From the NCBI GenBank assembly GCA_011390475.1, contig JAABSG010000005.1, positions 1 to 37,383 of the forward strand: a stretch of DNA of 37,383 bases, written 5' to 3'. Source of the stretch: Geminicoccaceae bacterium (lineage in GTDB: Bacteria > Pseudomonadota > Alphaproteobacteria > Geminicoccales > Geminicoccaceae). The first letter of the stretch is position 1, and every line of letters starts with the position of its first letter. The position numbers and the translations under genes were made by a program. This document shows, piece after piece, positions 1,291 to 32,330 of the stretch. The notes below the pieces were generated by a model. The model ran no database searches. It was given only the letters and a program-made list of their open reading frames with translations, and was not told the origin of the DNA.

Positions 1291-1965
1291 TCAGCCGGCG
1301 GCGCCGTTCAGCCAGGTGACGACATGCGGCAGGATGCGCTCGACGATGACGGCCACACCCTGGGCGTTGGGATGGATGCCGTCATCGGCCATGAGATCCC
1401 TGTCCTCGATCGCGCCGTCGAGAAAGAACGGGTAGAGGGGCACGTCGTAGCGCTCGGCGAGGCGCGGGTAGACATCGGCGAAGGCTTCCGTGTAGCGGGC
1501 ACCCAGATTGGGCGGGGCGAGCATGCCGGCGAGCTTGACCCTGACGCCTGCGGCCTGGGCTGTCTCGATGATGCCGGCGAGGTTCGCTTCCAGGGTTTCG
1601 ACCGGCAATGCGCGCAAGGCGTCGTTGCCACCGAGCTCGATCAGGATGTGGGTCGGCTCGTCGCCGAGCACCCAGTCGATGCGGCTGAGGCCGCCGGCCG
1701 AGGTGTCGCCCGAGACGCCGGCATTGAGGACCTCGCAGGTGATGCCTGCGCCGGCCAGCGCGCGTTCGAGCTGGGCCGGAAAGGCGTCGGCGAAGTCCAC
1801 ACCGTAGCCGGCGGCGAGCGAATCGCCGAGCACGGCGAGGCGGCATGTTTCGGTTGCGGTGCCCACTTTCGCCGAGCCCGTACCGAGGACGGCGAGTGCC
1901 GCGATTGCGCCCGCGAGGTTGAGGAACCGGCGGCGGCTCCCACTTCTGCCTTTGGGTTCAGTCAT
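1291..1965 (-). CDS. tesA: arylesterase / SGNH (GDSL) hydrolase, TesA-like, exported
   Basis: LAVLGDSLAAGYGV (GDSL block I), ELGGNDALRALP (block III), DGIHPNAQGV (block V); hydrophobic N-terminal segment; start chosen at internal Met (MTEPKG). Confidence 0.9.
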   Translation of the reverse strand: MTEPKGRSGSRRRFLNLAGAIAALAVLGTGSAKVGTATETCRLAVLGDSLAAGYGVDFADAFPAQLERALAGAGITCEVLNAGVSGDTSAGGLSRIDWVLGDEPTHILIELGGNDALRALPVETLEANLAGIIETAQAAGVRVKLAGMLAPPNLGARYTEAFADVYPRLAERYDVPLYPFFLDGAIEDRDLMADDGIHPNAQGVAVIVERILPHVVTWLNGAAG

Positions 1966-1984
1966 CGATGAGAGTTGGCACTTC

Positions 1985-2679
<695 letters not shown>

Positions 2680-2683
<4 letters not shown>

Positions 2684-5223
2684 GCGCGGCTTCGCTTTCG
2701 GCGACCGCCTTGGCGCGGATCGCCTGGCGAGATTTGCGCGGTAGCCGGGCCGCGGCCCTCATCATCCTCGCCTGCCTGACACTCGGTGTGGCCACCATCA
2801 CCGGCATCGGCTCGCTCCGCGAGAGCGTGACCGACACGGTCGCGCGCGATGCCAGGGCGTTGCTCGGTGGCGATCTGGTCATCGAATCGACCAATCAAGT
2901 GCTGCCGGAGGCGGAACTCGCGGCGGTCGTGCCGGCGGATGCCCGGGTCAGCCATTGGGTGACGACCAACGCTATCGCTTTTGCCGACAACGGCCGGCAG
3001 GTGGCGGTGGCGTTGAAGGCCGTGGACGATCTCTACCCGCTCCATGGCCGGGTAATGATGGAGCCCGAGCAGCCGCTCGACGACGCGCTCGAGAGTGGCG
3101 GGGCCTTGGCCGAACAGAGTCTGCTGCAGCGGCTGCAGGTCGAGGTGGGCGATACGCTGGAGCTCGGCACCGGGCGGGTCGAGATCCGCGGCGTGTTGGT
3201 CTCGGAGCCCGACCGGCTCGGCCGGTTCGTCGGGCTCGGGCCCAGGCTGATGGTGCATCAGGAGACCGTGGCCGATCTCGGCATCCTCGCACCCGGGGCC
3301 CTGGCCCGGCACAGTTACGGGCTGGCTCTGGCCGATCCCGGCACGGCCGAGGCGCATGTGGCGACGTTGCGCCGGGATTTCGCCGATGCGCATTGGCGCG
3401 CGCAAACGTTCGAATCGGTGCAGCCGCGAATCGCGCGTAATGCGGATCGGCTGGCGAGCTATCTCTCGCTCGCCGGCATCGCGGCCTTGCTGATCGGCGG
3501 GCTCGGCGTCGGGATCGTCGTCGACGCGCATCTCGCATCGCGGCAGCGGACGATTGCGACCTTGCGCTGCATCGGCAGCACGCGGCGTGACATTGCCGTG
3601 ATCTGTGGGCTGCAGATCTGTCTCTTGTGCGCGGCCGGGCTCGGACTGGGAGCGCTGGTCGGTACCACCTTGCCGTTTGCGATTCATCTGCTGCCGGCCG
3701 GGCTCTTGCCGATCGATCTCGCCATCGGCGTGCATCCCGGGGCCATCGTCTCGGCGGCCATGTTTGCGCTTGCGACTGCGGCGCTGTTCACGGCCCTGCC
3801 GCTCTTGCAGGCGACCGCGATCACGCCGGCGGCGCTGTTTCGTGACGATGGGGCGGCGCCGGCCGGTGTGGTGGTCGGCGCTGGCCGGGCGGCGCCGCGG
3901 CGCTGGCCCTGGCTCTTGGGCGTCGCGGTCTTCCTCGCGGCAACGGCCGTGCTCGCCGTGCCCGATCCCTTCATCGCCGCCGTCTTTCTCGGCATCGTCG
4001 CGGTCGCCGCGGCGTTCATTCAGGGCCTCGCCCGGCTCGGGCTGCTGGCCGTCGGCGCCATGGCGCAGCGCAGCTCCGGTCTCACCCGGCTGGCGCTGAG
4101 CCAGTTGCGCCGTGGCGAGCGGGCGGCGACCTCGTCGGTGGTGGCACTGGCGGCCGGTACGGCGGTCTTGACCACCGTGCTCCTGGTCGAGCACAGCATT
4201 TCGCGTGAACTCGCCGAGAATCGCCCGGCGGCGGCACCCAGCTCGATCTTCATCGACATCCAGCCGAACCAGCGAGAGGACTTCACGAGCCTCGTCCAGT
4301 CCTTCGCGGGTGCCCGCATCCTGCAGATGGAGCCGGTGCTCCGGGCGCGGGTCGTGCGGATCGGCGGCATCCCGGTCGACGAGGCCGAGATCGCCGACGA
4401 TGTGCGCTGGACCGTGCGCCGCGATCGCGGGCTCTCCTACCGCGCGGCATCGCCGCCGGCGGAGCAGATCGCCCTGGGCGAGTGGTGGCCCGCGGACTAC
4501 GCCGGGCCGCCGTTGGTCTCGGTCGAGGACGAGGTGGCCATCGGCTACGGACTCGGGATCGGCGACACGCTCACCTTCAATGTCATGGGGCGCATGGTCG
4601 AGGCCGAGATCGCCAATCTCCGCCGCGAGATCGACTGGTCGGAGGGTCGGGTGGATTTCGTCTTCGTGCTCAGCCCCGGGGTCATCGACCGGGCACCGCA
4701 CACGCTGATCGCCACGGTCGATATCGGCTCGGGCGATCAGACCGAGCTGATCGACCGGATGGCGCGGGAACTGCCCAACGTCACGCCTTTCGCCATTGCC
4801 GACATGATCGCCAGGATCGAGGCGATCCTGGGCCAGATCGGCCTCGCCGTCCGCTTCATGGCCGGGGTGACGCTGGTCACCGGGCTCGCGGTCCTGGTCA
4901 GCGCCTTGGCCGCGGCCCGGCGTCAGCAGTTGCGCCAGAGCGTGCTGTTCAAGGTGGTGGGCGCGGAGCGGCAGCAGATCGGGCGGATTTTTCTCGCCCA
5001 GTACCTGATGATCGGGACGGTGGCGGCGATCCTGGGCGCCTTGCTCGGGCTGGTTGCGAGCTTTGCCGTGGTCCGCTTCGGGTTCGGGCTCGACTGGAGC
5101 CTGGCGCCCCTGCTCGCCTCGGCCGTGCCGGTCGCGGCGGTGCTGGCCACGCTGGTGATCGGTGCCATCGGGCTGCAGCGGGTCTTGGGCGTGCCCGCGG
5201 CCACTATCCTGCGCAGTCCTTAA
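2680..5223 (+). CDS. ybbP: ABC transporter permease, FtsX-like, YbbP type
   Basis: 847-aa multi-TM protein with FtsX/MacB-type repeats, overlapping the end of the ybbA-like gene; E. coli-like tesA / ybbA-ybbP layout. Confidence 0.9.
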
Positions 5224-5408: not shown

Positions 5409-6122
5409 ATGGAACCACGGATGGATCAGCGACTGGCGCAGGGGCGCGTCGATGCCGCGGAGGTCGATGCCGGCCTGCGCAGCCATATGCTGTCGGTCTA
5501 CAATTACATGGGCCTGGCCCTGGCGTTGACCGGGCTCACCGCCTTCGTAACGGCCACCACGCCCGCCATGGTGCAGCTGATTTTCGGCACGCCGTTGCAG
5601 TGGGTGGTGATGCTGGCACCCTTGGGCTTCATCTTTTTCCTCGGCTCCAAGGTACATTCGATGAGCGTGAGTGCCGCTCAAATCACCTTTTGGGCCTTCG
5701 CGGTCACCATGGGCCTGTCGATGGCCAGCATTTTCCTGGTCTTCACCGGCACCAGCATCGCCCGGGTCTTTTTCATCACCGCCGGCACGTTCGGCGCGAT
5801 GAGCATCTACGGTTACACGACGAAGCGTGATCTGTCGAAGTATGCTTCGTTCCTGATCATGGGCGTGATCGGCATCGTCATCGCGATGATCGTGAACCTC
5901 TTCATCGGCAGCTCGGCGCTGCAGTTCGCGATCAGTGTGATCGGTGTCCTGGTCTTCACCGGCCTCACCGCCTACGACTCGCAGCGGATCAAGGAGGAGT
6001 ACAACGAGCTCGCCGGTCACGAGATGCTGTCGAAGATGGCGATCATGGGCGCCCTGAGCCTCTACCTCAACTTCATCAACCTCTTCATGATGCTGCTGCA
6101 TCTCTTCGGCAACCGCGAGTGA
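5409..6122 (+). CDS. Bax inhibitor-1 / YccA family membrane protein
   Basis: Seven-TM-like protein with YNYMGLALALTGL, GLTAYDSQRIKEEY and ALSLYLNFINLFMMLLHLFGNR, typical of the BI-1 family. Confidence 0.95.
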   Translation: MEPRMDQRLAQGRVDAAEVDAGLRSHMLSVYNYMGLALALTGLTAFVTATTPAMVQLIFGTPLQWVVMLAPLGFIFFLGSKVHSMSVSAAQITFWAFAVTMGLSMASIFLVFTGTSIARVFFITAGTFGAMSIYGYTTKRDLSKYASFLIMGVIGIVIAMIVNLFIGSSALQFAISVIGVLVFTGLTAYDSQRIKEEYNELAGHEMLSKMAIMGALSLYLNFINLFMMLLHLFGNRE

Positions 6123-6151: not shown

Positions 6152-6176
6152 ACGGCCCGCTTCGGCGGGCCGTTTT
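6152..6176 (+). terminator. Rho-independent terminator after the BI-1 gene
   Basis: ACGGCCCGC-TTCG-GCGGGCCGT followed by TTTT: perfect 9-bp GC-rich stem, TTCG loop, T-run. Confidence 0.9.
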
Positions 6177-6215: not shown

Positions 6216-6926
6216 TCAGCCGAAGGCATTGGGATCGCCGGCGCAGGCCGCGAACAGACGTTGGTCGGCCAGCAACTCGCCCGGCCGACCTTCCGCCACC
6301 AGCCGACCCTGGGCCAAAACGTAGCCGTAATCGGCGAGGCCGAGGACCGGCTCGGCGTAGCGGTCGGCCACCAAGAGGGTATAGCCGTCGCGCGCGAGGC
6401 TACGTAGCAGATCGCTCGCCCGATCGACGCCGATGGCGGGCATCAGATCGTCGATCAAGAGCAATCGCGGCAGGCCGAGCAGGGCGCGACCGAGATCGAC
6501 CAGGCGCAACAGCTCGGGCTCGAGATCGTCGACGCGTTGGTCGAGGCAGCCCTCCAGTTCCGGCAGATAGTCTGCCAACCGCTCGAATGCCGCAGCCTCC
6601 AGGCGAACCGAGGCCGCGGCCAGCACCAGATACTCGCGCACCGCGAGGCCCGGGAACACCGGCGGTGTCTGGAAGGCGCAGCGCAGGCCGAGCTGCTGGC
6701 GGGCGAGAGGACCGAGCGGCATCAGCTCGTGGCCGGCGAGTCGCAGCTCGCCGGCGCGCGCCGGGCGAAGGCCGAGCAGCAGCTCGAATAGCACCGACTT
6801 GCCGGCCTGGGCGCCGCCGACGAGCGCCACGAGGCTGCCTTCGGCGACGTCGAGCGAGAGGTCGCGGATCAACCAGTCGCCATCGGCGACGGCCTCGAGT
6901 CCGCGGGCTTGCAGGAGTCCCGGCAT
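6216..6926 (-). CDS. divergent LivF-like ABC nucleotide-binding-domain protein
   Basis: Walker A VGGAQAGKS retained, Q-loop-like AFQTPPVFPGLAVREYL, Walker B LLLIDD; expected LSGGE signature replaced by LEPEL; C-term GYVLAQGRLVAEGRPGELL is LivF-like. Confidence 0.75.
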   Translation of the reverse strand: MPGLLQARGLEAVADGDWLIRDLSLDVAEGSLVALVGGAQAGKSVLFELLLGLRPARAGELRLAGHELMPLGPLARQQLGLRCAFQTPPVFPGLAVREYLVLAAASVRLEAAAFERLADYLPELEGCLDQRVDDLEPELLRLVDLGRALLGLPRLLLIDDLMPAIGVDRASDLLRSLARDGYTLLVADRYAEPVLGLADYGYVLAQGRLVAEGRPGELLADQRLFAACAGDPNAFG

Positions 6927-7723
6927 CAGAGGGTGGAGCCCGTCAGCAGCCGATAGACGTGGGCGGCCGAACCGATGGCGGCCGGTGTCGCGTCGGCGAT
7001 CAGCCGGCCCCGATCGAGCACCAGGCAGCGATCGGCGAGCCGGCCCAGGGTCGCCAGATCGTCCTCGATGACCACCATGGTGAGCGCTGCCTTGCGCAGC
7101 CGGGCGAGCAACTCGGCGAAGCGGGTGCGGTCGGCGGGCCCGAGCCCGGCGAGTGGTTGCTCGAGCAACAGGAGCCGTGGCCGTTGGGCGAGGCAGCGGG
7201 CGAGCTCGGCGAGCCGTGCGTCGAGACCGCCCAGGCTCGGCACCGGCCGCTCGGCGAGGCCGTCGATGTCGAGAAACTCGAGGATGGCGGCGATGTCCTC
7301 GGCATCGCTCAGGGTTGGCGCGGCGCCGATGCCCAGGGTGAGCCGCCAGCCCGGCCTCGCGACCATGACCCGGGCCGCGATGAGCATCTCGCGGACGCTG
7401 CCGGCCGTGAGCAGACGCTGGCGGCGCATGGCGAGGATGCCGAGGCGGACCCGCGCCGTCGGCCCCAGCCGATCGATGCGCAACCCGCCGAAGCGCAGCG
7501 AGCCAGCCGTCGGCAAGGTGTGGCCGGTGACGAGATCGCGCAGCCCAGAGCGTCCGCCGAAAGCCCCTTCGGCCTCGCCGTCGAGCCCGATCACGCCGGT
7601 GATCGAGGCGGTATCGAAGCCACAGGTGAGGCGGTCGATAGCTTTGCCGCGGCGGCTTTCGAGGGTCACCTCGACCAGCTCCAAGAGCGGCCGCAGCGGC
7701 TGGTCGAGGACCAGATCGCTCAT
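6926..7723 (-). CDS. divergent LivG-like ABC nucleotide-binding-domain protein with degenerate catalytic motifs
   Basis: LivG-like layout (LVTGHTLPTAGSLRFGGLRIDRL ... ARCLAQRPRLLLLEQPLAGLGPADR ... ADRCLVLDRGRLIADATP) but no Walker A Lys (IGLDGEAEGAFGG), Walker B LLLLEQ, H-loop IEDD. Confidence 0.75.
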   Translation of the reverse strand: MSDLVLDQPLRPLLELVEVTLESRRGKAIDRLTCGFDTASITGVIGLDGEAEGAFGGRSGLRDLVTGHTLPTAGSLRFGGLRIDRLGPTARVRLGILAMRRQRLLTAGSVREMLIAARVMVARPGWRLTLGIGAAPTLSDAEDIAAILEFLDIDGLAERPVPSLGGLDARLAELARCLAQRPRLLLLEQPLAGLGPADRTRFAELLARLRKAALTMVVIEDDLATLGRLADRCLVLDRGRLIADATPAAIGSAAHVYRLLTGSTL

Positions 7724-7779
7724 CGGTCGGCCCGTTGTCTCTGGGCCGGTTGTTCCTGGGCTCGTCACTTCTGTCCCGG

Positions 7780-8718
7780 TCATCTCGGGGCCGAGCGCGG
7801 CTGGGGCAGGCTGCCGGTGAAGGCGGTGCTCGGCGGTTGCCAGGCGGGTGACCCGTCGGGGCGAACGATCAGCTGCAGAATCAGCGCGGCGAGTGCGGCG
7901 GCAAGCGTCAGATCGACGAAATGGGGGGCGAGGAGGACGGTGAACTTGGGCAGGAGGATGAGCGGCAAGGCAGCGAGCAAGGCCCCGCCGATGCGCACCC
8001 CGCCGAGCCGGCCGACGGCGAAAAGGGCCAGCGATAGCGCCACCCAGTCGTTCGCATCGCTGCTGATGAGCGGGGCCGGCCCGACTGCCAGGATGCCGCC
8101 GCCGAGCGTGGCCGTTGCGGCTGCCAGCAGTAGCGCCGTCGCGCGAAAGGCGGCGAGATCGAGGCCGAGGCCGTCGGCCGGCAGCCGGGCCAGGACAGCC
8201 GCCTCGTGCAACCGGGCCATGGTGGCGCCCGCGAACCGCGCTGTGGCCGAAAGGAGCAGGGTCGAGGCGAGGAGGGGCAGCAGCAGAAAGGCGTCGATGC
8301 CGAGGCCAGCGAGCTCGAGGTCGGGCTCGGTCGTGACCGAGGGCAAGCTCGCGAGACCGAGGAGGAGGGCGAGCAACAGGGCGGTCGCAACGACGCCGGC
8401 CTGGCCGCGGATCGCGAGCCAGACCAGCCCGCCCAGGATCAGGCCCAAAAGCGGTGTGGTGGCCAGGGCAGCGGCGGTCGGCCAGCCGAGATCCACGGTC
8501 AAGATCGGCATCAGGCTGGCGCCCATGGCGGCGAACCCACCCAGACAAACGAGCGGCAGCCGCGCGATGCCGATGCCGATCAGGGCGGCGACGGTGAGCA
8601 GTGCCAGCCCGCCCGAAAAGCCGGCAAACGGCAGAAAGGCCGGATGGCCGATAGCGGCCAAAAGGATCGGCAGGAGCAGGAACGGGGCGAGTGCCGTCAA
8701 GAGCGGGGCCATGCGCAT
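7780..8718 (-). CDS. LivM-like multi-TM permease, divergent
   Basis: Very hydrophobic 312-aa ORF; ATMARLHEAAVLARLPADGLGLDLAAFRATALLLAAATATLGGGILAV and VALSLALFAVGRLGGVRIGGALLAALPLIL resemble the conserved LivM segments. Confidence 0.65.
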   Translation of the reverse strand: MRMAPLLTALAPFLLLPILLAAIGHPAFLPFAGFSGGLALLTVAALIGIGIARLPLVCLGGFAAMGASLMPILTVDLGWPTAAALATTPLLGLILGGLVWLAIRGQAGVVATALLLALLLGLASLPSVTTEPDLELAGLGIDAFLLLPLLASTLLLSATARFAGATMARLHEAAVLARLPADGLGLDLAAFRATALLLAAATATLGGGILAVGPAPLISSDANDWVALSLALFAVGRLGGVRIGGALLAALPLILLPKFTVLLAPHFVDLTLAAALAALILQLIVRPDGSPAWQPPSTAFTGSLPQPRSAPR

Positions 8719-8733
8719 CAGCCGCGATCGCGC

Positions 8734-9408
8734 TCAGTCGATACCGGAGCGCACGAGGCGCGGTGCCACGAGCTTGGCTGCGAGAAGTGCTGCTGCGGCG
8801 ATGACGAAGACATGGACGGGCGGTCCGAGCAGGAGTTCGCCCGTGGCGACCAGCGCCCCGGTGAGCCAGGCGAGGAGTACCGTCAGCGTGGCTCGGCCCT
8901 TCGGTCGGCCGACCCGCCCGAGGACCAGCAGTGCCAGGCACGCGAGTGGCAGCCAGTCGGTGGTCGCCGGCACCGGGGCGAGGTTTCCGGCGAGTCCGGC
9001 GAGGAGCAGGCCCAAGAGAGTCGGCAGCACGAGGCCGACCGGCACGCCGACCGCGACGAGGCCCGCGGCATTGGCCGCCATCGCCCGCCAGGTGCGCCCG
9101 AGCCGGCTCGTTTCGTGGAGCAACAGGGCGAGGAACAGCAGGACCAGGGCGCCGAGCCAGCCGAGGGTGACGAGCCAGGCATGGGCGCCGGCGGCGATCA
9201 GCCGATCGGGGGCGAGGCCGAGTGCCGCCGTGACGGCGTTGGTCGCCAGTGCCATACCGACGGCGGCGGCAACGGCAGCGGCGATCAGCGTGAGTGGCTC
9301 CAGGGTCACCCGGCGGGTGGTAGCCCAAGCGGCAGCGGCCGCGTGCAGGAGGCAGGCAGCCTCCAGGACCAGTGCGTAAACCAGGGCCAGGGTGAAAGCG
9401 TGAGACAT
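8734..9408 (-). CDS. LivH-like multi-TM permease, divergent and short
   Basis: Hydrophobic 224-aa ORF with SRLGRTWRAMAANAAGLVAVGVPVG resembling the LivH 'GRAMRAVAQN..A...GI' loop; collinear with the LivM/G/F-like genes. Confidence 0.6.
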   Translation of the reverse strand: MSHAFTLALVYALVLEAACLLHAAAAAWATTRRVTLEPLTLIAAAVAAAVGMALATNAVTAALGLAPDRLIAAGAHAWLVTLGWLGALVLLFLALLLHETSRLGRTWRAMAANAAGLVAVGVPVGLVLPTLLGLLLAGLAGNLAPVPATTDWLPLACLALLVLGRVGRPKGRATLTVLLAWLTGALVATGELLLGPPVHVFVIAAAALLAAKLVAPRLVRSGID

Positions 9409-9426: not shown

Positions 9427-10461
9427 ATGGGTTGGCGGGCGGTGGCGCCAGAAATCGACTGGCGCATCCCGGGCTGGTTGCGGGCGAAACAGACCCTCGG
9501 CCGACGGCTCACCGGACTAGTCTTACTGCTCGGCACAGGCGCGCTCGCCATGGGCTGCGCTGCCGGTACGGCCATACCGGGTCAGTCGCCATCTGTCACG
9601 ATCTCACGCCTCTCGGCTGAACCGATCGGACTACGTACAGCACCCGGGGTAGAGCTACTGGCGGCTTATGCGCTTTCCGGCAGTGACCCCCGCTTCGGCG
9701 GCTTTTCGGCGATCGAGACGGATGGTCGCACTCTCTGGCTGCTCAGCGACCGGGCGACGCTCTGGCGGGCCGCGCTCGACCTCGACGGCACGACTGGCGC
9801 CCTGATGGCCTTGGACTGGCAGGTCGGTGAGGTCGTCGGCGATGCTCTCGACCGCCGCCCGCTCGACAGCGAGGCCTTGGCTCTGGCCCAGGACGGCACG
9901 CTGTTTGCCGCCTTCGAGCACGACCAGTCGCTACGCCGACTGGAGCGCCTGCCGGCGGGCGAATGGTCGACCGAGCGGCTGCATCCGGGCCGGCTGATCG
10001 AGGGTGCGCCGCGCAACCGGGGGCTCGAAGCGCTGGCGCGTCTGGCGGACGGCTCGTTGGTCGCACTTTCCGAGGGGGCTCGGCTGGCCCCGAACGTGGC
10101 CGAGGGCGCACGGCTGACGAGGGGAGCCGTGACACCCTTCGGCTACGCCATCTCACCCGGCTTCGATCCCGTTGGGGCCGCGACCAAGGACGGGCACCTC
10201 TATGTCCTGGAGCGCAGCCTGAGCGTGTTGGGCGGCTGGCAGAGCCGGCTGACCCGCAGCGCCGTTCCGGCTTCGGGTGAGTGGGGCACGCTCGAGGCCG
10301 AGGAGCTGATCCGGATCGACGCCGGTCCTCTGGCCGAGAACTACGAAGGGGTCGCGATTCTCGAGCATGGCGTCGAGGCCGCCTCCATCCTCTTGATCGC
10401 CGACGACAATCAGTCCGCCTTGCAGCGGACGCTGCTCCTGGTCTTCAGTTATGCCGGCTGA
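9427..10461 (+). CDS. esterase-like activity of phytase family protein (PF13449-like), putative exported protein
   Basis: N-terminal hydrophobic segment ending ALAMGCAAG; FGGFSAIETDGRTLWLLSDR, DSEALALAQDGTLFAAFEHDQSLRR, NRGLEALARLADGSLVALSE typical of the family. Confidence 0.85.
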   Translation: MGWRAVAPEIDWRIPGWLRAKQTLGRRLTGLVLLLGTGALAMGCAAGTAIPGQSPSVTISRLSAEPIGLRTAPGVELLAAYALSGSDPRFGGFSAIETDGRTLWLLSDRATLWRAALDLDGTTGALMALDWQVGEVVGDALDRRPLDSEALALAQDGTLFAAFEHDQSLRRLERLPAGEWSTERLHPGRLIEGAPRNRGLEALARLADGSLVALSEGARLAPNVAEGARLTRGAVTPFGYAISPGFDPVGAATKDGHLYVLERSLSVLGGWQSRLTRSAVPASGEWGTLEAEELIRIDAGPLAENYEGVAILEHGVEAASILLIADDNQSALQRTLLLVFSYAG

Positions 10462-11544: not shown

Positions 11545-12054
11545 ATGAGGGCCGTGATGCGAGCCTTGCTGATGCTGCTGCTTTTGGTCGCCGTCGCTGC
11601 GCCGGCCGCGGCGACTAGCGGTGTCGGGCGCGCCTTGCAAGCGCTCGAGCGGGATATCGTGGCGGTCACGGCACATGCGGCGGCCTTGCGCGAGCGCTTC
11701 GCGGCGGATGTCGAGACCGGCAAGGGGGCCGAGATCGCCGGGATCGCCGATGGCGGTGTCGACTCGTCGCTCACCGCCCTGCGCCTCGCCGCCCGCGCGG
11801 TCGACCGCAGGCTCGAGCGGCTGCGCCTGGCCACGGCAGGCGAGCTCACGCCCGACCGGGCAGAGGTCATGCTGGCCCTGCGCTCGTCGCTGGCGAGCCT
11901 GCTCTGGACGATCGAGGTCATTCCCTCGACGCCAGAGCCCGACGCCGCGACCAAGGCCAAGCGCGAGCGCCAGCTCGCTCAGCTCGACGAAGCCCTGGCC
12001 GAGCTCGACCTGGCGACGGCGGCGATGGCGAGCTTCGACTGGGCGGAGCATTGA
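11545..12054 (+). CDS. hypothetical exported protein
   Basis: Signal-peptide-like N-terminus MRAVMRALLMLLLLVAVAAPAAAT; helical Ala/Leu/Arg/Glu-rich body; no family recognised. Confidence 0.6.
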   Translation: MRAVMRALLMLLLLVAVAAPAAATSGVGRALQALERDIVAVTAHAAALRERFAADVETGKGAEIAGIADGGVDSSLTALRLAARAVDRRLERLRLATAGELTPDRAEVMLALRSSLASLLWTIEVIPSTPEPDAATKAKRERQLAQLDEALAELDLATAAMASFDWAEH

Positions 12055-22482: not shown

Positions 22483-24354
22483 ATGATCCGATCGACGGTG
22501 TTGGCGCGACTGGGGCTCGCAGCGGCGGTGATGGTCGCGATCGGTGGCGCTTCGGTCGCCGCCGATGTCGAGCCGGCGCACGGCATCGCGATGCACGGCG
22601 ACGTCAAATATCCGCCGGACTTCACCCATTTCGAGTATGTCGATCCGGATGCGCCCAAGGGCGGTAGCATCACCTATTCGGCGATCGGCAGCTTCGACAG
22701 CCTGAATCCGTTCATTCTACGCGGGCAGGCGGCGGCGGGCCTGGGCGTGCTTTTCGAGACGCTGACCCAACGCTCCAACGACGAGGCCTTCACCGAATAC
22801 GGCCTTCTGGCCGAGACGATCGAGATGCCCGAGGACCGTTCCTGGGTCGCCTTCACGCTCCGCCCCGAGGCGCGCTGGAACGACGGTGAGCCAGTGACCG
22901 TCGCGGACGTGATCTGGAGCCTGGAGACGATCAAGGCCAAGGGGCATCCCTTCTATCGTGCCTATTACGCCAATGTCGTGAGCGCCAGGGAAGAGGGCGA
23001 GCGGCGGGTGGTCTTCGAGTTCGACGGGGCGATCAATCGCGAACTCCCCTTGATCGTCGGGCAGATGCCGATCCTGCCCAAGCACTATTGGGAAACCCGT
23101 GATTTCGAGGCCTCGACGCTCGAGCCGCCCTTGGGCAGCGGGCCCTATCGGGTCGCCAGGGTCGATCCGGGCCGGTCGATCACCTACGAGCGCGTGCCCG
23201 ACTACTGGGGTGCCGAGGTTCCGGTGAGCAAGGGTCGGTTCAACTACGACCAGATTCGCTACGAGTATTTCCGGGATTCCAACGTCGCGCTCGAGGCCTT
23301 CAAAGCCGGACAGTACGATTTCCGCGTCGAGAACACGGCCCGGCTCTGGGCCACGGCCTATACCGGCCCCGGTGTCGATGCCGGGCTGATCGTGCGCGAG
23401 GAGATCCGCGACGAGAGCGGGACGGGCATGCAGGGCTATGTCTTCAACACGCGGCGCGCCATGTTCGAGGATCCCAGGGTGCGCCAGGCACTGGCTTATG
23501 CGTTTGATTTCGAGTGGTCGAACAGCACGCTCTTTTTCGATCAATACGTGCGCAGCGAGAGCTATTTCTCCAATACCGAACTGGCCGCGACCGAGCTGCC
23601 GGACGAGCGTGAGCTCGCGATCCTCGAGCCGTTTCGCGACCAGTTGCCGGAGGCCGTCTTCACCACGGTCTACGAGCCGCCCACGACCGACGGGTCGGGT
23701 GAGCTTCGGGGCAATCTCCGCACCGCCTTCGAGATGCTGCAAGAGGCCGGCTGGGAGGTCGACCGGGCGACCCGCAAGCTGATCGATACCGAGACCGGCC
23801 AGCCGATGCGTTTCGAGATCCTCTTGATCAACCCGGCTTTCGAGCGGATCACCGGGCCTTTCCTGCGGAACCTGGAACGGCTCGGCATCGATGCCACGAT
23901 GCGCACGGTCGATACGGCGCAGTACCAGAACCGGGTCGACGCCTTCGATTTCGACATGATCGTCGGGGTCTGGGGGCAGTCGCTCTCGCCGGGTAACGAA
24001 CAGCGCGATTTCTGGTCCTGCGAGGCCGCCGAGACGCCGGGTAGCCGCAACTTTGCCGGGATCTGCGATCCGGTGGTCGATGCCCTGATCGAGCGCGTCA
24101 TCCAGGCCGAGAGCCGCCAAGGGCTCGTTGCCGCCACGCGCGCCCTCGATCGGGCGCTCTTGTTCGGCCACTACGTGATCCCGCACTGGCACTCGCCGGT
24201 GACCCGAGTCGCCTATTGGGACAAATTCGACCGGGCGGAAATTGACCCGCGCTACGGTCTCGATCTCAATGCCTGGTGGGTCGATCCGGGCAAGGCCGAC
24301 CAGGTGGCCCGCCGGCAGCGCGATCTCGATCTCGACGACGTCGTGACCGAATAG
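22483..24354 (+). CDS. extracellular solute-binding protein family 5, YejA-like
   Basis: GIAMHGDVKYPPDFTHFEYVDPDAPKGGSITYSAIGSFDSLNPFILRG, FTLRPEARWNDGEPVTVADVIWS, HYVIPHWHSPVTRVAYWDKF. Confidence 0.94.
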   Translation: MIRSTVLARLGLAAAVMVAIGGASVAADVEPAHGIAMHGDVKYPPDFTHFEYVDPDAPKGGSITYSAIGSFDSLNPFILRGQAAAGLGVLFETLTQRSNDEAFTEYGLLAETIEMPEDRSWVAFTLRPEARWNDGEPVTVADVIWSLETIKAKGHPFYRAYYANVVSAREEGERRVVFEFDGAINRELPLIVGQMPILPKHYWETRDFEASTLEPPLGSGPYRVARVDPGRSITYERVPDYWGAEVPVSKGRFNYDQIRYEYFRDSNVALEAFKAGQYDFRVENTARLWATAYTGPGVDAGLIVREEIRDESGTGMQGYVFNTRRAMFEDPRVRQALAYAFDFEWSNSTLFFDQYVRSESYFSNTELAATELPDERELAILEPFRDQLPEAVFTTVYEPPTTDGSGELRGNLRTAFEMLQEAGWEVDRATRKLIDTETGQPMRFEILLINPAFERITGPFLRNLERLGIDATMRTVDTAQYQNRVDAFDFDMIVGVWGQSLSPGNEQRDFWSCEAAETPGSRNFAGICDPVVDALIERVIQAESRQGLVAATRALDRALLFGHYVIPHWHSPVTRVAYWDKFDRAEIDPRYGLDLNAWWVDPGKADQVARRQRDLDLDDVVTE

Positions 24355-26456: not shown

Positions 26457-28379
26457 CTAGGTCGGCTCGACGGTCAGGATCATCAGCCCATAGGGCTCGA
26501 GGGTGTGGGCCTTGTCAGGATCGAAGACGGCATCGTTCCAGAGGTCGTGGCTGCGGCGCGGCCCCAGTCGTTCGGCTTCGATATCGACCCAGTGCTCGCT
26601 CAGATTGGCGACGATGGTGAGCGTTTGGCCCTGGGCTCGTCGCTCGAAGGCCAGCGTATAGCGGGGATCGAGGGCGATGGGGTGGATCGTGCCGACCCCG
26701 AGGGCCGGTGCCTGCTTGCGCAATGCCCCGAGCCGCCGCATGGCGGACAAGACCCGCCCTTCCGGGGTCGCCGGCTGGTCGAGCGCCCGGGCCAGCCGCT
26801 CATCCGAGAAATACGGCCGATGCACCCAGCGATTGTCCGCAGCCTCGGCCAACCGGTCCGTATAGGTCGGATCATTCGGCTGGGCGATCTCGTCGCCGAG
26901 ATAGAGGAGCGGGATGCCGCCCAGCGTGTAGACCAGGGCATGCATCGAGATGATCCGCCGGACGGCATGGTCGATCAGCGACGGATCACCGTCCGCCTCG
27001 GCAGCCTCCAACCCGGCCAGCGCCGCGCACGTGCCCGAGACACGACAGTCGCCCGTTCGCGGGTTCTCCTGAAACGGCAGCCCACGGGCGAAGCTGCCGG
27101 GAAAGCGCCCGGTATAAAAGGCGTTCAAAAAGCGGCGGTGGCCGTCCGGATCGATGCCCAACGCCACCATGTCTTCGTTGGCCATGCCCCAGCCGATATC
27201 GTCGTGACAGCGGAGATAATTGACCCAGGCGGTACCGATCGGCGTCCCGTGGCGGCGGGCCAGGATGTCCCGCAGATGCCGGGTGTCACGGGTGGCGAGC
27301 GCATCCCAGAGCGAGCACATCAAGAGCGGATTGTAGGACAGCCGACACTCGTCCGGCCGGACATAGCGGACGACCTCGTCCGGATGGACGATGGCCTCGG
27401 ATTTGAAGACGAGCGACGGGGCAGCGATGGCCGCCGCGGCATTCAGCGCGCGAACCACGAGATGCGCTTCGGGCAGGTTCTCGCAGGGGCTGCCGGGCTT
27501 TTTCCACAAGAAGGGCACGGCATCGAGCCGGAGCACGTCGACGCCCTGGTTGGCGAGAAACAGCATCTCGCCCAGGATGGCGCGGAGCACCGCCGGGTTG
27601 CTGTAGTTGAGGTCCCACTGGAAGGGGTAGAACGTGCTCCAGACCCACTTGCCGCCGGCCAGATCCTCACGCCAGACGAAGGCGTCGCCGCCGCGATCGG
27701 GGAAGATCTGGCGGAGGTGGCGGGCATAGGGCTCGACCGCTGCGCGATCGTCGAACATCCAGTAATAGGCCTGTTTCTCCGGGTCCCCCGCCTTGGCAGC
27801 CTCGGCCCAGGCGTGATCGTCGGCGGTGTGGTTGAGAACGAAGTCGAGGACCAGCGCCATGCCGCGCTCGTGCAGCGCGTCGGCGAATTTTGCCAGCTGG
27901 TCCATGGTGCCCAGCCGTGGCGCCACCTCGCGATAGCTCGAGACCGCATAGCCGCCGTCGTTCGGTCCGTCCGGGACACGGAAGAGCGGCATGAGGTGGA
28001 GATAGGTGACGCCCAGGCGCTCGAGATGGGGCAGGCGGTCGTAGAGGCCGATGATGCTGCCGGCGAACCGGTCGACATAGCCCATCGCACCGATTTGCTC
28101 GGCAGCCCTGATCCAGTCCGGCGGGCGGTCGCGGTCGCGCTCGGCCAGTGGCTCGGGGCGCGCGATCGCGGCCTTCAGCGCCGTCTCGGCGATGGCCTCG
28201 AGGTGCCAGGCGACATCCCAGCGATGGCCGTAGAGCGGCAGGAGGGCATCGACCAGACGCGGCAGGTTCGCCTCGAGCCTGGCCTCCAGCACCTCTCGCC
28301 TGCGGCCGGCCCGCTCCAAGAGTGGCGTCAGCCGGCAGCACAGGGTCGAAAGGGCGATCCTGGTTTCGGCCGGGGTCAT
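26457..28379 (-). CDS. GH13 alpha-glucan enzyme, amylosucrase-like (GH13_4)
   Basis: VDVLRLDAVPFLWK (nucleophile Asp), LVFKSEAIVHPDEV (acid/base Glu), NYLRCHDDIGWGM, GGIPLLYLGDEIAQPND. Confidence 0.88.
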   Translation of the reverse strand: MTPAETRIALSTLCCRLTPLLERAGRRREVLEARLEANLPRLVDALLPLYGHRWDVAWHLEAIAETALKAAIARPEPLAERDRDRPPDWIRAAEQIGAMGYVDRFAGSIIGLYDRLPHLERLGVTYLHLMPLFRVPDGPNDGGYAVSSYREVAPRLGTMDQLAKFADALHERGMALVLDFVLNHTADDHAWAEAAKAGDPEKQAYYWMFDDRAAVEPYARHLRQIFPDRGGDAFVWREDLAGGKWVWSTFYPFQWDLNYSNPAVLRAILGEMLFLANQGVDVLRLDAVPFLWKKPGSPCENLPEAHLVVRALNAAAAIAAPSLVFKSEAIVHPDEVVRYVRPDECRLSYNPLLMCSLWDALATRDTRHLRDILARRHGTPIGTAWVNYLRCHDDIGWGMANEDMVALGIDPDGHRRFLNAFYTGRFPGSFARGLPFQENPRTGDCRVSGTCAALAGLEAAEADGDPSLIDHAVRRIISMHALVYTLGGIPLLYLGDEIAQPNDPTYTDRLAEAADNRWVHRPYFSDERLARALDQPATPEGRVLSAMRRLGALRKQAPALGVGTIHPIALDPRYTLAFERRAQGQTLTIVANLSEHWVDIEAERLGPRRSHDLWNDAVFDPDKAHTLEPYGLMILTVEPT

Positions 28380-30103
28380 GGGGCGATCGGCCCTTCGACC
28401 AGCCAGCGCACAGCGAAGGCCGGCATCGTGACGGACGGCCCCGCGAACGTCTCTCCCGACAGCATGTCCGACCAGCTACCACTTGCCTCTGCCTCGGTCT
28501 CGGCCTCGAAGTCGCGCGGTGAGGCGGTGACGTTGATGGCGGCGAGAAGCCGGCGCCCGGCCGTGCTGCGTTCGATGAGCACCAGCCCCGGATCGCCGGT
28601 GATGACGCGCTGTTCGGCGTCCGGATGGAGTGCCGGCTCGGTCGCTCGGGCGCGGAGCAGCCGGCCGATGCCCGTGAAGACGCGATGCCGTAGCGATGCT
28701 GGATCGTCGAGGGCGGCACGGACCGCGGTCACATCCAGCTTCTCCCGGTTGATCGACCGGTTGCGCCCGGTCGTCGCCAAGCCGGCATGGTCACTTCGCG
28801 AGCCCAAAAGCGAGTGGATGTAGAGTCCGGGCAGGCCCGCCATGGCGAGCAGAATGCCGTGTGCCGCGATCATCGCGGCCGCTCGGGTCGCGTCATCGGC
28901 GGCAGCCGGCACGAGCCCGTCGATATAGCTGATATTCAGCTCGTAGGGCTTGGTCGAGCCGTCCGGCAAGGCGCGCATCGAGACGGCCCCACCTCGCTCG
29001 ACAATTGTCTCGGCCATGCGGGCCACGGCCTCGGGCGGCAACAGCCCCTCCAAGGGCCGCATGCCGATGCCGTCATGGGACGCCAGGAAATTGAAGAAGG
29101 TCGTGCCGGGGGGCGGTGGCTCGAGATCCTTGGCCCAGGCGGTGAGGGCCGAGGCATCGCCTGTCTGAAACGCATGCTGGACCAAGGGCGGCAGCGGGAA
29201 CTGATAGACCAGGTGAGCTTCGGGTGCCGCGTCGCCGAAATAGGAAATGTTCTCGGCATGCGGCACGTTGGTCTCGGTGATGATCAGCGTGCCCGGTGCC
29301 GCCGCCTCCACCACTTCCCGCATCACCTGGACCAGCGCATGCGTCTCGGGCAAATGCATAGAGCCGGTGCCCAGCCGCTTCCACATGAAGCCGATGGCAT
29401 CGAGGCGGATGAAGCGGGCGCCCTTGGCACAATAGTCGAGGAGGAGGTCGAGGATCTCCAGCAGGAGTTCGGGATTGCTGTAATCGAGATCGACCTGATC
29501 GGGACTGAAGGTGGTCCAGACATGGACTGGCCCGCTTGCCGTCTCGACCTCGGTCAGGAGCGGCAGGGCCCGGGGCCGCACGACCGCAGTGTAGTCGGCC
29601 TCGGGATCGGCGCGGATGAAGTAGCCGTCATAGGGCGCCTCGTCCGCCAAAAAGCCCATGAACCACTCGCTCTCGGCCGAGGCGTGATTGATCACCGCAT
29701 CGACCATCACCTCGAAATCACCGGCCAGGGCCAGGACGTCCGACCAGTCGCCGACCGCCGGATCGACGGCGCGGTAGTCCTTGACCGAAAAGCCGTCGTC
29801 CGAGGTCCAGGGGAAGAAGGGGAGGAGGTGAACCGCGGAGACGAGATCGACGCAGCGCTCTTGGAGAAAGCCGTGCAGCGTGGCGAGCGGCGCCTCGTCC
29901 GGATGCCGCAGCGTGTCGGCATAGGTGATCAGCATGGCGTCCGCCTCATCGAGCCACGGCCGCCGTTCGACCATCGCCGGCTGCCACCGATCGACGAGAG
30001 CAGCGATCCGGGTTAGGAGAGCGGCCGCCTGGTCATGCCCGTAGACGAGCCCGAGCTGTGCCTCGATGCGGGCCTTAAGCCTTTTTTCGTTATCGTCTGC
30101 CAT
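28376..30103 (-). CDS. GH13_18-type sugar phosphorylase (sucrose / glucosylglycerate phosphorylase family)
   Basis: VHLLPFFPWTSDDGFSVKDYRAVDPAVGDW, FIRLDAIGFMWKRLGTGSMHLPET, IITETNVPHAENISYFG, FFNFLASHDGIGMRPLEG. Confidence 0.88.
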   Translation of the reverse strand: MADDNEKRLKARIEAQLGLVYGHDQAAALLTRIAALVDRWQPAMVERRPWLDEADAMLITYADTLRHPDEAPLATLHGFLQERCVDLVSAVHLLPFFPWTSDDGFSVKDYRAVDPAVGDWSDVLALAGDFEVMVDAVINHASAESEWFMGFLADEAPYDGYFIRADPEADYTAVVRPRALPLLTEVETASGPVHVWTTFSPDQVDLDYSNPELLLEILDLLLDYCAKGARFIRLDAIGFMWKRLGTGSMHLPETHALVQVMREVVEAAAPGTLIITETNVPHAENISYFGDAAPEAHLVYQFPLPPLVQHAFQTGDASALTAWAKDLEPPPPGTTFFNFLASHDGIGMRPLEGLLPPEAVARMAETIVERGGAVSMRALPDGSTKPYELNISYIDGLVPAAADDATRAAAMIAAHGILLAMAGLPGLYIHSLLGSRSDHAGLATTGRNRSINREKLDVTAVRAALDDPASLRHRVFTGIGRLLRARATEPALHPDAEQRVITGDPGLVLIERSTAGRRLLAAINVTASPRDFEAETEAEASGSWSDMLSGETFAGPSVTMPAFAVRWLVEGPIAP

Positions 30104-30173
30104 CAATAGTGCTCCCCGACGCGAACGCCGCACTCGAACCCGCCTTGGATACCGTCTCGTCCGTCAACCCGCC

Positions 30174-32330
30174 ATGGAAACGCCGCGTGTCCGAACCGAG
30201 AAACGGCTCGATCCGATCATGACCCGCATGCCCGGTCGACTCTATCCTGGCAGCCCCTATCCCCTCGGCGCCACGATCGACGAAGGTGGGATCAATTTCG
30301 CGCTTTTCTCGGCTCATGCCGAGGCGGTCGAGCTCTGCCTCTTCGACCCGGCCGGAGAGCGGGAGGTGGCACGGCTGACATTGCCGGAATGGACCGACGA
30401 GGTCTGGCATGGCTATCTGCCGGGCGCGGGCGCCGGCCTCGTCTATGGCTATCGCGTGCATGGACCGCATCAGCCGACGAACGGGCATCGATTCGATCCG
30501 GCGAAACTCCTGCTCGACCCCTACACTCGGCGCCTGTGCGGCCGGTTCGATCGAGCGGCGCTCGGGCGCGACGGTGCCGCCTGCAGGATCGGTGCCGATA
30601 CGGCGCCCTTTGTCGCCAAGGCCGTGGTGACAGCGGCCGACGAGGCCTATGCCGGCACCTGGAGCAGACCCAGCAACGGCCGATCCGAGACCTTGATCTA
30701 CGAGGCGCATGTCAAGGGGCTGACCAAGCTGCATCCCGATATCGCCCCGGCGCTGCGGGGCACCTATGCGGCCCTCGGCGAGCCGCGGCTGATCGAGCAT
30801 CTCCAGCGTCTGGGCGTTACGGCCCTCGAGCTCTTGCCGCTCCAGGCTTTCGTCGACGAGCCGCATTTGATCGACAAGGGTCTCGTCAATTACTGGGGCT
30901 ACAACCCGATCAACTGGTTCGTGGTCGAACCACGCTACGCCCATGGTGAAGAGCCGCTCGCCGAGCTGAAGCTCGCCATCAGTGCCCTCCACGCCGCCGG
31001 CATCGAGGTGCTGTTGGATGTCGTCTACAACCACACGGGCGAAGGTGATGGCCAGGGTCCCTGTCTCGCCTATCGCGGGATCGACAACCATAGCTACTAC
31101 CGCCTGGATTCGGCGACGGCCGACGGCTATGCCAACCTCACCGGCTGCGGCAACACCATCGACGCCAGCAACCCGCGCGTCCTGCAACTCATCATGGACT
31201 CTTTGCGCTACTGGGTCGAGATCGTCGGCGTCGACGGGTTCCGCTTCGATCTCGCGGCCACCCTCGGCCGCGAGCCGGCGGGCTTCGACAAGGGCGCCGG
31301 GTTCTTCGACTGCCTGAAACAGGACCCGGTGCTGTCGCGGGTCCGGCTGATCGCGGAGCCCTGGGACATCGGCCCCGAAGGCTATCGGATGGGCGGCTTC
31401 GGCCCCGGCTGGTCCGAGTGGAACGACCGCTACCGCGACGTCGTTCGAGGTTTTTGGCGCGGCGACGAGCGCATGCTGCCCGAGCTCGCGTCACGTCTCT
31501 TGGGCTCGGCCGATCTCTTCGAGCATCAGGGCCGCCGCCCCTGGTCGAGCATCAACTTCGTCGCCGCCCATGACGGCTTCACGCTGGCCGACCTCGTAGC
31601 GTTCGAGGATCGCCACAACGAGGCCAATCTGGAGAACAACGGCGACGGCCACGGGCACAACCTCTCCTGGAACAACGGCGTCGAGGGGCCGAGCGACGAT
31701 CCGACCATCATTGCCGACCGCAGGCGCGACGTCCGCAACCTTCTGGCGACGCTCTTCTTCAGCCAGGGCACCGTCATGCTCGCCATGGGCGACGAGCTCG
31801 GCCGCAGCCAATCGGGCAACAACAACGCCTATTGCCAGGACAACGACCTCTCCTGGCTCGACTGGCAGGAGGCCGACAGCGAGCTTCTGACCTTCGTCGC
31901 CGAGCTCGCCGCCATCCGCCGCGCCCACCCGGCTCTCCGCCGCCAGCACTTCGTCCACGGCGACGTCGAAGCCGCGGACGGCACACCCGACGTGCAATGG
32001 CTGAACCCGGATGGTACGGCCATGACGAGCGCCGACTGGCATGACCCGAGCTGCAGGGTGGTCCTCCTGGCCCTCGCGGGCGACGCCACCAAAGAGTGCT
32101 CTTCAGACGGCAGCCCGGCGCGCGACAGTCGATTCATCATCGCCCTCAATGCCGCCTCCGTCCCCTCGCCGCTCCATCTGCCCGAGGGCAACTGGTCGAT
32201 TCGCCTCGATACCAGCGGCGAAGCTGATCTCGGGCTGTTGCCGCCGCGGAGCCTGGTGTTGTTCCAGACCACCGCCGTTCCCACCTCTGACGATGAAGAT
32301 CAGCCGAGTCCCGAGGAGCAGCGTCCGTGA
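30174..32330 (+). CDS. glgX: glycogen debranching enzyme GlgX
   Basis: GRLYPGSPYPLGATIDEGGINFALFSAHAEAVELCLFD, TLIYEAHVKGLTKLHPDI, GFRFDLAATLGRE, AEPWDIGPEGYRMGGFGPGWSEWNDRYRD; ATG at 30219 is also possible. Confidence 0.95.
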   Translation: METPRVRTEKRLDPIMTRMPGRLYPGSPYPLGATIDEGGINFALFSAHAEAVELCLFDPAGEREVARLTLPEWTDEVWHGYLPGAGAGLVYGYRVHGPHQPTNGHRFDPAKLLLDPYTRRLCGRFDRAALGRDGAACRIGADTAPFVAKAVVTAADEAYAGTWSRPSNGRSETLIYEAHVKGLTKLHPDIAPALRGTYAALGEPRLIEHLQRLGVTALELLPLQAFVDEPHLIDKGLVNYWGYNPINWFVVEPRYAHGEEPLAELKLAISALHAAGIEVLLDVVYNHTGEGDGQGPCLAYRGIDNHSYYRLDSATADGYANLTGCGNTIDASNPRVLQLIMDSLRYWVEIVGVDGFRFDLAATLGREPAGFDKGAGFFDCLKQDPVLSRVRLIAEPWDIGPEGYRMGGFGPGWSEWNDRYRDVVRGFWRGDERMLPELASRLLGSADLFEHQGRRPWSSINFVAAHDGFTLADLVAFEDRHNEANLENNGDGHGHNLSWNNGVEGPSDDPTIIADRRRDVRNLLATLFFSQGTVMLAMGDELGRSQSGNNNAYCQDNDLSWLDWQEADSELLTFVAELAAIRRAHPALRRQHFVHGDVEAADGTPDVQWLNPDGTAMTSADWHDPSCRVVLLALAGDATKECSSDGSPARDSRFIIALNAASVPSPLHLPEGNWSIRLDTSGEADLGLLPPRSLVLFQTTAVPTSDDEDQPSPEEQRP

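Follow-up and report, generated by a model that had tools for sequence, protein, structure and literature searches.

A four-gene ABC cassette of LIV descent, kept by selection in one alphaproteobacterial family and probably repurposed

The window analysed here is a stretch of 37,383 nucleotides from contig JAABSG010000005.1 of Geminicoccaceae bacterium (assembly GCA_011390475.1). It contains four tightly spaced open frames on the minus strand, in the order LivH-like, LivM-like, LivG-like and LivF-like (Table 1), with the coordinates and the 224-residue LivH-like product that an earlier note, made from the letters alone, had described. The LivH-like and LivM-like genes are 15 bp apart, the LivM-like and LivG-like genes overlap by 4 bp, provided that the upstream ATG of the latter (7783) is its start, and the LivG-like and LivF-like genes share a stop/start overlap, TGATG. 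Orthologs of the LivG-like protein in two congeners, the MAGs Rhodospirillales bacterium CSSed165cm_57 and Alphaproteobacteria bacterium Co_bin.244, have 74% and 51% identity to it, and its N-terminus SDLVLDQPL is conserved. Promoter and terminator scans of the locus found none. The LivF-like and BI-1 genes converge, and the interval separating them holds a GC-rich inverted repeat (cggcccgc-cgaa-gcgggccg, 6153-6172). A similar repeat occurs in locus L081. The one in the window could be a terminator that the two genes share, though the terminator scan called none.

Table 1. Genes of the cassette and its two flanking anchors in the window
Feature	Position	Strand	Description
LivH-like membrane protein (gene 1)	8734..9408	-	224 aa; congener orthologs 70% and 45% identity; LivH profile match
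LivM-like membrane protein	7780..8718	-	312 aa; congener orthologs 69% and 48% identity; LivM profile match
LivG-like ATPase	6926..7723	-	265 aa (285 aa with alternative upstream ATG at 7783); ABC_tran 26.9 bits
LivF-like ATPase	6216..6926	-	236 aa; ABC_tran 46.3 bits; congener orthologs 73% and 57% identity
BI-1 (Bax1-I) family gene	5409..6122	+	PF01027, 211 bits; downstream syntenic anchor, outside cassette
Phytase-like gene (PF13449)	9490..10461	+	102.5 bits; N-terminus resembles a lipobox (by eye); upstream syntenic anchor, divergently oriented, outside cassette

Elsewhere in the window, a TesA-like gene on the minus strand lies beside plus-strand genes for a LolD-like ATPase and an FtsX-like permease (1291-5223), an arrangement that is conserved in both congeners and looks like a YbbAP-TesA type VII ABC system (compare PMC12646458). 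A 169-residue protein with no Pfam match (11545-12054) has syntenic counterparts in the two congeners (65% and 43% identity), and a cluster of alpha-amylase-family and debranching-type enzymes was recognised by eye at 26457-32330.

Synteny of the cassette is complete in both congeners, where it again sits between the BI-1 and phytase-like genes, with 69-74% identity to the window's proteins in one and 45-57% in the other. A sequence search with the membrane protein reached only the genus, and synteny reached further: in representatives of three further genera (G014, G010 and G008) a gap of 3.2-4.3 kb separates BI-1 from the phytase-like gene and contains the same four genes, and in G019 pieces of the cassette are split over two contigs. 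In all, the cassette is found at one locus in seven genomes of four genera in a single alphaproteobacterial family; the same four-gene order, for which the earlier note had proposed a genome-neighbourhood survey as a check, recurs across genera. Identity between the window and the other genera is about 40% for the LivF-like ATPase, 30-33% for the LivG-like ATPase and 22-33% for the membrane proteins. Two of these loci have peculiarities of their own. In G010 a gene for an SDR-type oxidoreductase (by eye; L078 2027-2836) stands between BI-1 and the LivF-like gene, and in G019 the LivH-like frame runs into an alpha-amylase-like frame (L080 2631-4246), which is probably a chimeric MAG contig.

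In 14 other genomes of the family, BI-1 and the phytase-like gene are directly adjacent, no more than about 210 bp apart, and the cassette is therefore absent from that locus there. We rejected a functional tie of the cassette to either anchor on the same ground, that the two adjoin each other without it in these 14 genomes. A profile built from the seven LivF-like sequences found no further member among 31 family genomes, the best outsider scoring 157.5 bits against 312-358 bits for the cassette members, whose scores are high partly by construction. Among a sample of 385 genomes of the class, no ortholog was found outside the family; the best outsider, G109 at 167.5 bits, was rejected as a cassette ortholog, being a canonical LIV set. 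A tree of BI-1 and rpoB unites genera g1, g7 and g9 in a single clade (95.8/99); six of six genomes there carry the cassette, and G014 stands apart. Either ancestral presence followed by losses or one transfer would account for this history.

The descent of the ATPases is clear from their sequences. Both LivG-like and LivF-like proteins pass the Pfam ABC_tran model and branch with LivG and LivF respectively: a 53-sequence tree places the LivF proteins of the cassettes in one clade and their LivG proteins in another (100/99 each), on the matching sides of a deep LivF/LivG split (97/96). The simplest reading is that both clades go back to a single LIV-derived ancestor, with an exact sister group that is unsure because the branches are long. 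For the membrane proteins, the earlier note's likeness to LivH and LivM stood as a weak profile match. Neither protein of the window matched a Pfam model, PF02653 included, and among the seven cassettes a PF02653-type permease match was obtained for one LivH-like (4.8e-4) and one LivM-like protein (0.048). Profile-profile comparison aligned 223 columns of the LivM-like family with canonical LivM (E=1.5e-6), a better match than that to LivH, and the LivH-like family with canonical LivH in the region of the coupling loop (E=2.1e-5). Because of these matches the gene order H-M-G-F is right as first read; the assignment of the membrane proteins to LivH and LivM is weak by sequence alone. A PDB sequence search with both membrane-protein profiles gave no match, and AlphaFold models built from three-row alignments (pLDDT 43.5 for LivM-like, 45.2 for LivH-like) were too poor for use. 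A hydropathy count of transmembrane helices was set aside, since its numbers were implausible even in canonical controls. NCBIfam matches were led by UrtE, LivG and UrtD, and all lay far under any equivalog cut-off; for the urea transporter UrtABCDE, the scores were 76.6 bits against a cut-off of 285.8 for UrtE and 71.7 against 304.1 for UrtD. The open-access literature searched yielded no description of such a cassette.

Canonical LIV cassettes are defined in part by a periplasmic binding protein encoded in or beside the operon. Consistent with the earlier note, which had remarked on its absence, no match to the LIV-type family PF13458 (Peripla_BP_6) was found on the window contig, and no binding protein of the LIV type was seen among the frames between the anchors in loci L077-L079. 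The only binding protein seen in the window is of the family-5 type (by eye; 22483-24354), 13 kb away. The genome as a whole has ten PF13458 matches, all on other contigs and six of them sharing a contig with PF02653 permeases, so a distant partner could be encoded elsewhere.

Another way to view the cassette is through its two composite ATP sites. In the canonical controls LivG has the P-loop, the Walker B Glu and the H-loop His, and LivF has the LSGG signature, so the site formed by the LivG Walker motifs and the LivF signature carries the full catalytic set; at the other site, Gln occupies the H-loop position of LivF, and the opposing signature, from LivG, is of the LPYG type. These controls were partly chosen by their P-loop, signature and H-loop motifs, and the comparison with the cassettes is therefore independent only at other columns (the catalytic Glu, the Q-loop Gln and new constraints). 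The LivG-like proteins have lost the Walker B Glu, the H-loop His and the Q-loop Gln in all seven genomes, and the P-loop Lys in six of them. At the position of Glu188 the seven genomes read Q/H/H/R/R/H/R (Gln in the window) and at that of His220 D/D/D/E/E/D/S (Asp in the window); the P-loop of the window's protein is destroyed and bears a six-residue insertion, an in-frame one recorded for G000 and G002. The LivF-like proteins have in turn lost LSGG in all seven, with Ser-Gly-Gly absent, and keep P-loop Lys43 and Walker B Asp159 as invariants. The window's own LivF-like ATPase has an intact P-loop (GGAQAGKS), Asp in place of the catalytic Glu, Arg at the H-loop position and no LSGG. Across the genomes the catalytic Glu position reads D/N/D/E/E/E/Q, and slow hydrolysis may thus be possible in G008, G010 and G019, where Glu is kept. 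As a separate observation, in G008 (L079 4102-5606) the LivG-like P-loop is intact (GPTGSGKS) and the LivF-like one reads GGSHAHKS, so that the better P-loop belongs to another subunit here than in the other six genomes.

Judged by these motifs, the composite site with the full canonical set is destroyed in all seven cassettes, and the already atypical site, made of the LivF-like P-loop and Walker B Asp with a non-consensus LivG-like signature, keeps a predicted nucleotide-binding core. A full catalytic set at one composite site, another defining feature of LIV/HAAT systems, was found in no cassette. Additionally, seven sites of the LivF-like protein are invariant among the cassettes and conserved with another residue in canonical LivF (A38G, R88P, F121L, Q141R, I145L, V187A and Q189R), and there are more such sites shared by six of the seven. 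This pattern suggests a new constraint rather than drift, and one that falls mainly on the LivF-like subunit, since the LivG-like protein has only one such site.

Decay of a paralog, with frames merely held open by high GC, might also explain the lost catalytic motifs, the fast divergence and the many family members without a cassette. We consider this very improbable, and the decay reading is largely refuted by the following. The complete cassette loci showed neither stops nor frameshifts, and the gaps in their alignments preserve the frame. For the pair G000 and G002, the four genes have dN/dS of 0.02-0.16, and an omega of 1 is rejected (LRT 106-182). The same rejection holds for all pairs, with LRT of at least 27.9. 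Saturation of some dS values makes the exact ratios unreliable but leaves the rejection of neutrality unaffected. Divergence in the minus-strand frames is highest at third codon positions, gene order and start-stop coupling are kept across genera, and new invariant residues have appeared. The dN of the cassette genes is about that of the neighbouring phytase-like gene and exceeds that of BI-1 and the FtsX-like gene. A wrong-strand reading was ruled out by dN/dS, frame conservation and codon-position divergence. The mild lean of the earlier note against simple decay is thus strengthened: with 45-74% identity in congeners and dN/dS far below 1 in conserved synteny, the four genes are more than chance open frames, and its grounds for calling the cassette a decaying LIV paralog (orthologs in relatives with canonical motifs and an adjacent binding protein, together with frameshifts or dN/dS near 1) found nothing to match them.

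What, then, is the cassette kept for? LIV descent, synteny, selection, loss of the full site and the keeping of one predicted nucleotide-binding core are the firm part of the account, and they indicate that it is probably maintained as a repurposed membrane complex that does not pump or does so very slowly. Our preferred reading, which we hold tentatively and at somewhat under even chances, is that a LIV-derived four-subunit complex has been turned from pumping to gating or signalling that depends on ATP binding. ATP would bind at the single kept site, the LivF-like P-loop; binding there would close the ATPase pair; closure would move the LivH/LivM-like membrane part; and hydrolysis would be absent or very slow. 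With no sustained hydrolysis, the complex would act as a nucleotide-gated sensor, regulator or gate and not as a pump for solute import. The strictest form of this, a purely ATP-binding, non-hydrolysing sensor or gate without a binding protein, and so a conversion of transporter to receptor within the HAAT family, is possible if on the unlikely side. The changed role that the earlier note preferred to early decay is supported in this inferential sense, and the strongest evidence for it is the consistent loss of catalytic motifs in the ATPases, which that note did not contain.

The main rival is a working but unusual transporter, driven by slow ATP hydrolysis at the LivF-like P-loop. It would either act on a membrane-soluble ligand (by import, export or flipping) with no binding protein, or rely on an orphan one encoded elsewhere. 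The LivF-like proteins, all seven of which retain the P-loop Lys and the Walker B Asp and three the catalytic Glu, the ten PF13458 matches elsewhere in the genome and the coupling-loop regions that still align to LivH and LivM all fit such a transporter; however, the canonical full-set site is destroyed and LSGG lost in every member, the LivF-like Glu is D, N or Q in four genomes, and no binding protein was found at the locus in the genomes examined, so we regard it as rather unlikely. Less probable again is a regulator whose subunits mix with or compete against those of canonical LIV systems, dampening or retargeting amino acid import. Common descent with LivG and LivF and the many canonical LIV sets that the genome also carries would suit it, but a poisoning subunit would have no need of the other three, which are all retained with it, and the four sequences, coupling loops included, are very diverged from the canonical ones.

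Compared with the LIV-I/HAAT systems LivFGHM (and UrtBCDE), the cassette is alike in its order H-M-G-F, in the descent of its ATPases and in the profile matches of its membrane proteins, and differs in having no adjacent binding protein, no detectable PF02653 in the window and a destroyed full catalytic site. Among solved structures, the LivG-like profile comes closest in sequence to LptB and the MJ1267 LivG (1g6h), ATPases that retain their catalytic motifs, and no Lpt partners are encoded at the locus. FtsEX, a type VII mechanotransmission ABC system whose FtsE hydrolyses ATP, has a membrane protein of a different family, and we claim no homology to it beyond the ABC fold. Asymmetric ATP sites, one of them without catalytic residues, are described for TM287/288, TAP and ABCB11 (PMC5216877, PMC7544095). 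These transporters keep one consensus hydrolytic site, whereas the cassette has lost the complete site of canonical LIV. Despite the LIV-derived ATPases, the failure of two defining LIV features means that the cassette should not be filed as a LIV importer.

ABC importers of the LIV type are abundant, and the general assumption is that they are pumps which run on ATP and receive their solute from a binding protein. The cassette is a warning that genes like these should not be labelled as transporters of branched-chain amino acids. Lacking both LIV hallmarks and yet under purifying selection at one locus across genera, it would be a natural case in which an ABC importer has taken on a different function, and may serve to test what remains possible for a LIV complex with an atypical ATP site alone.
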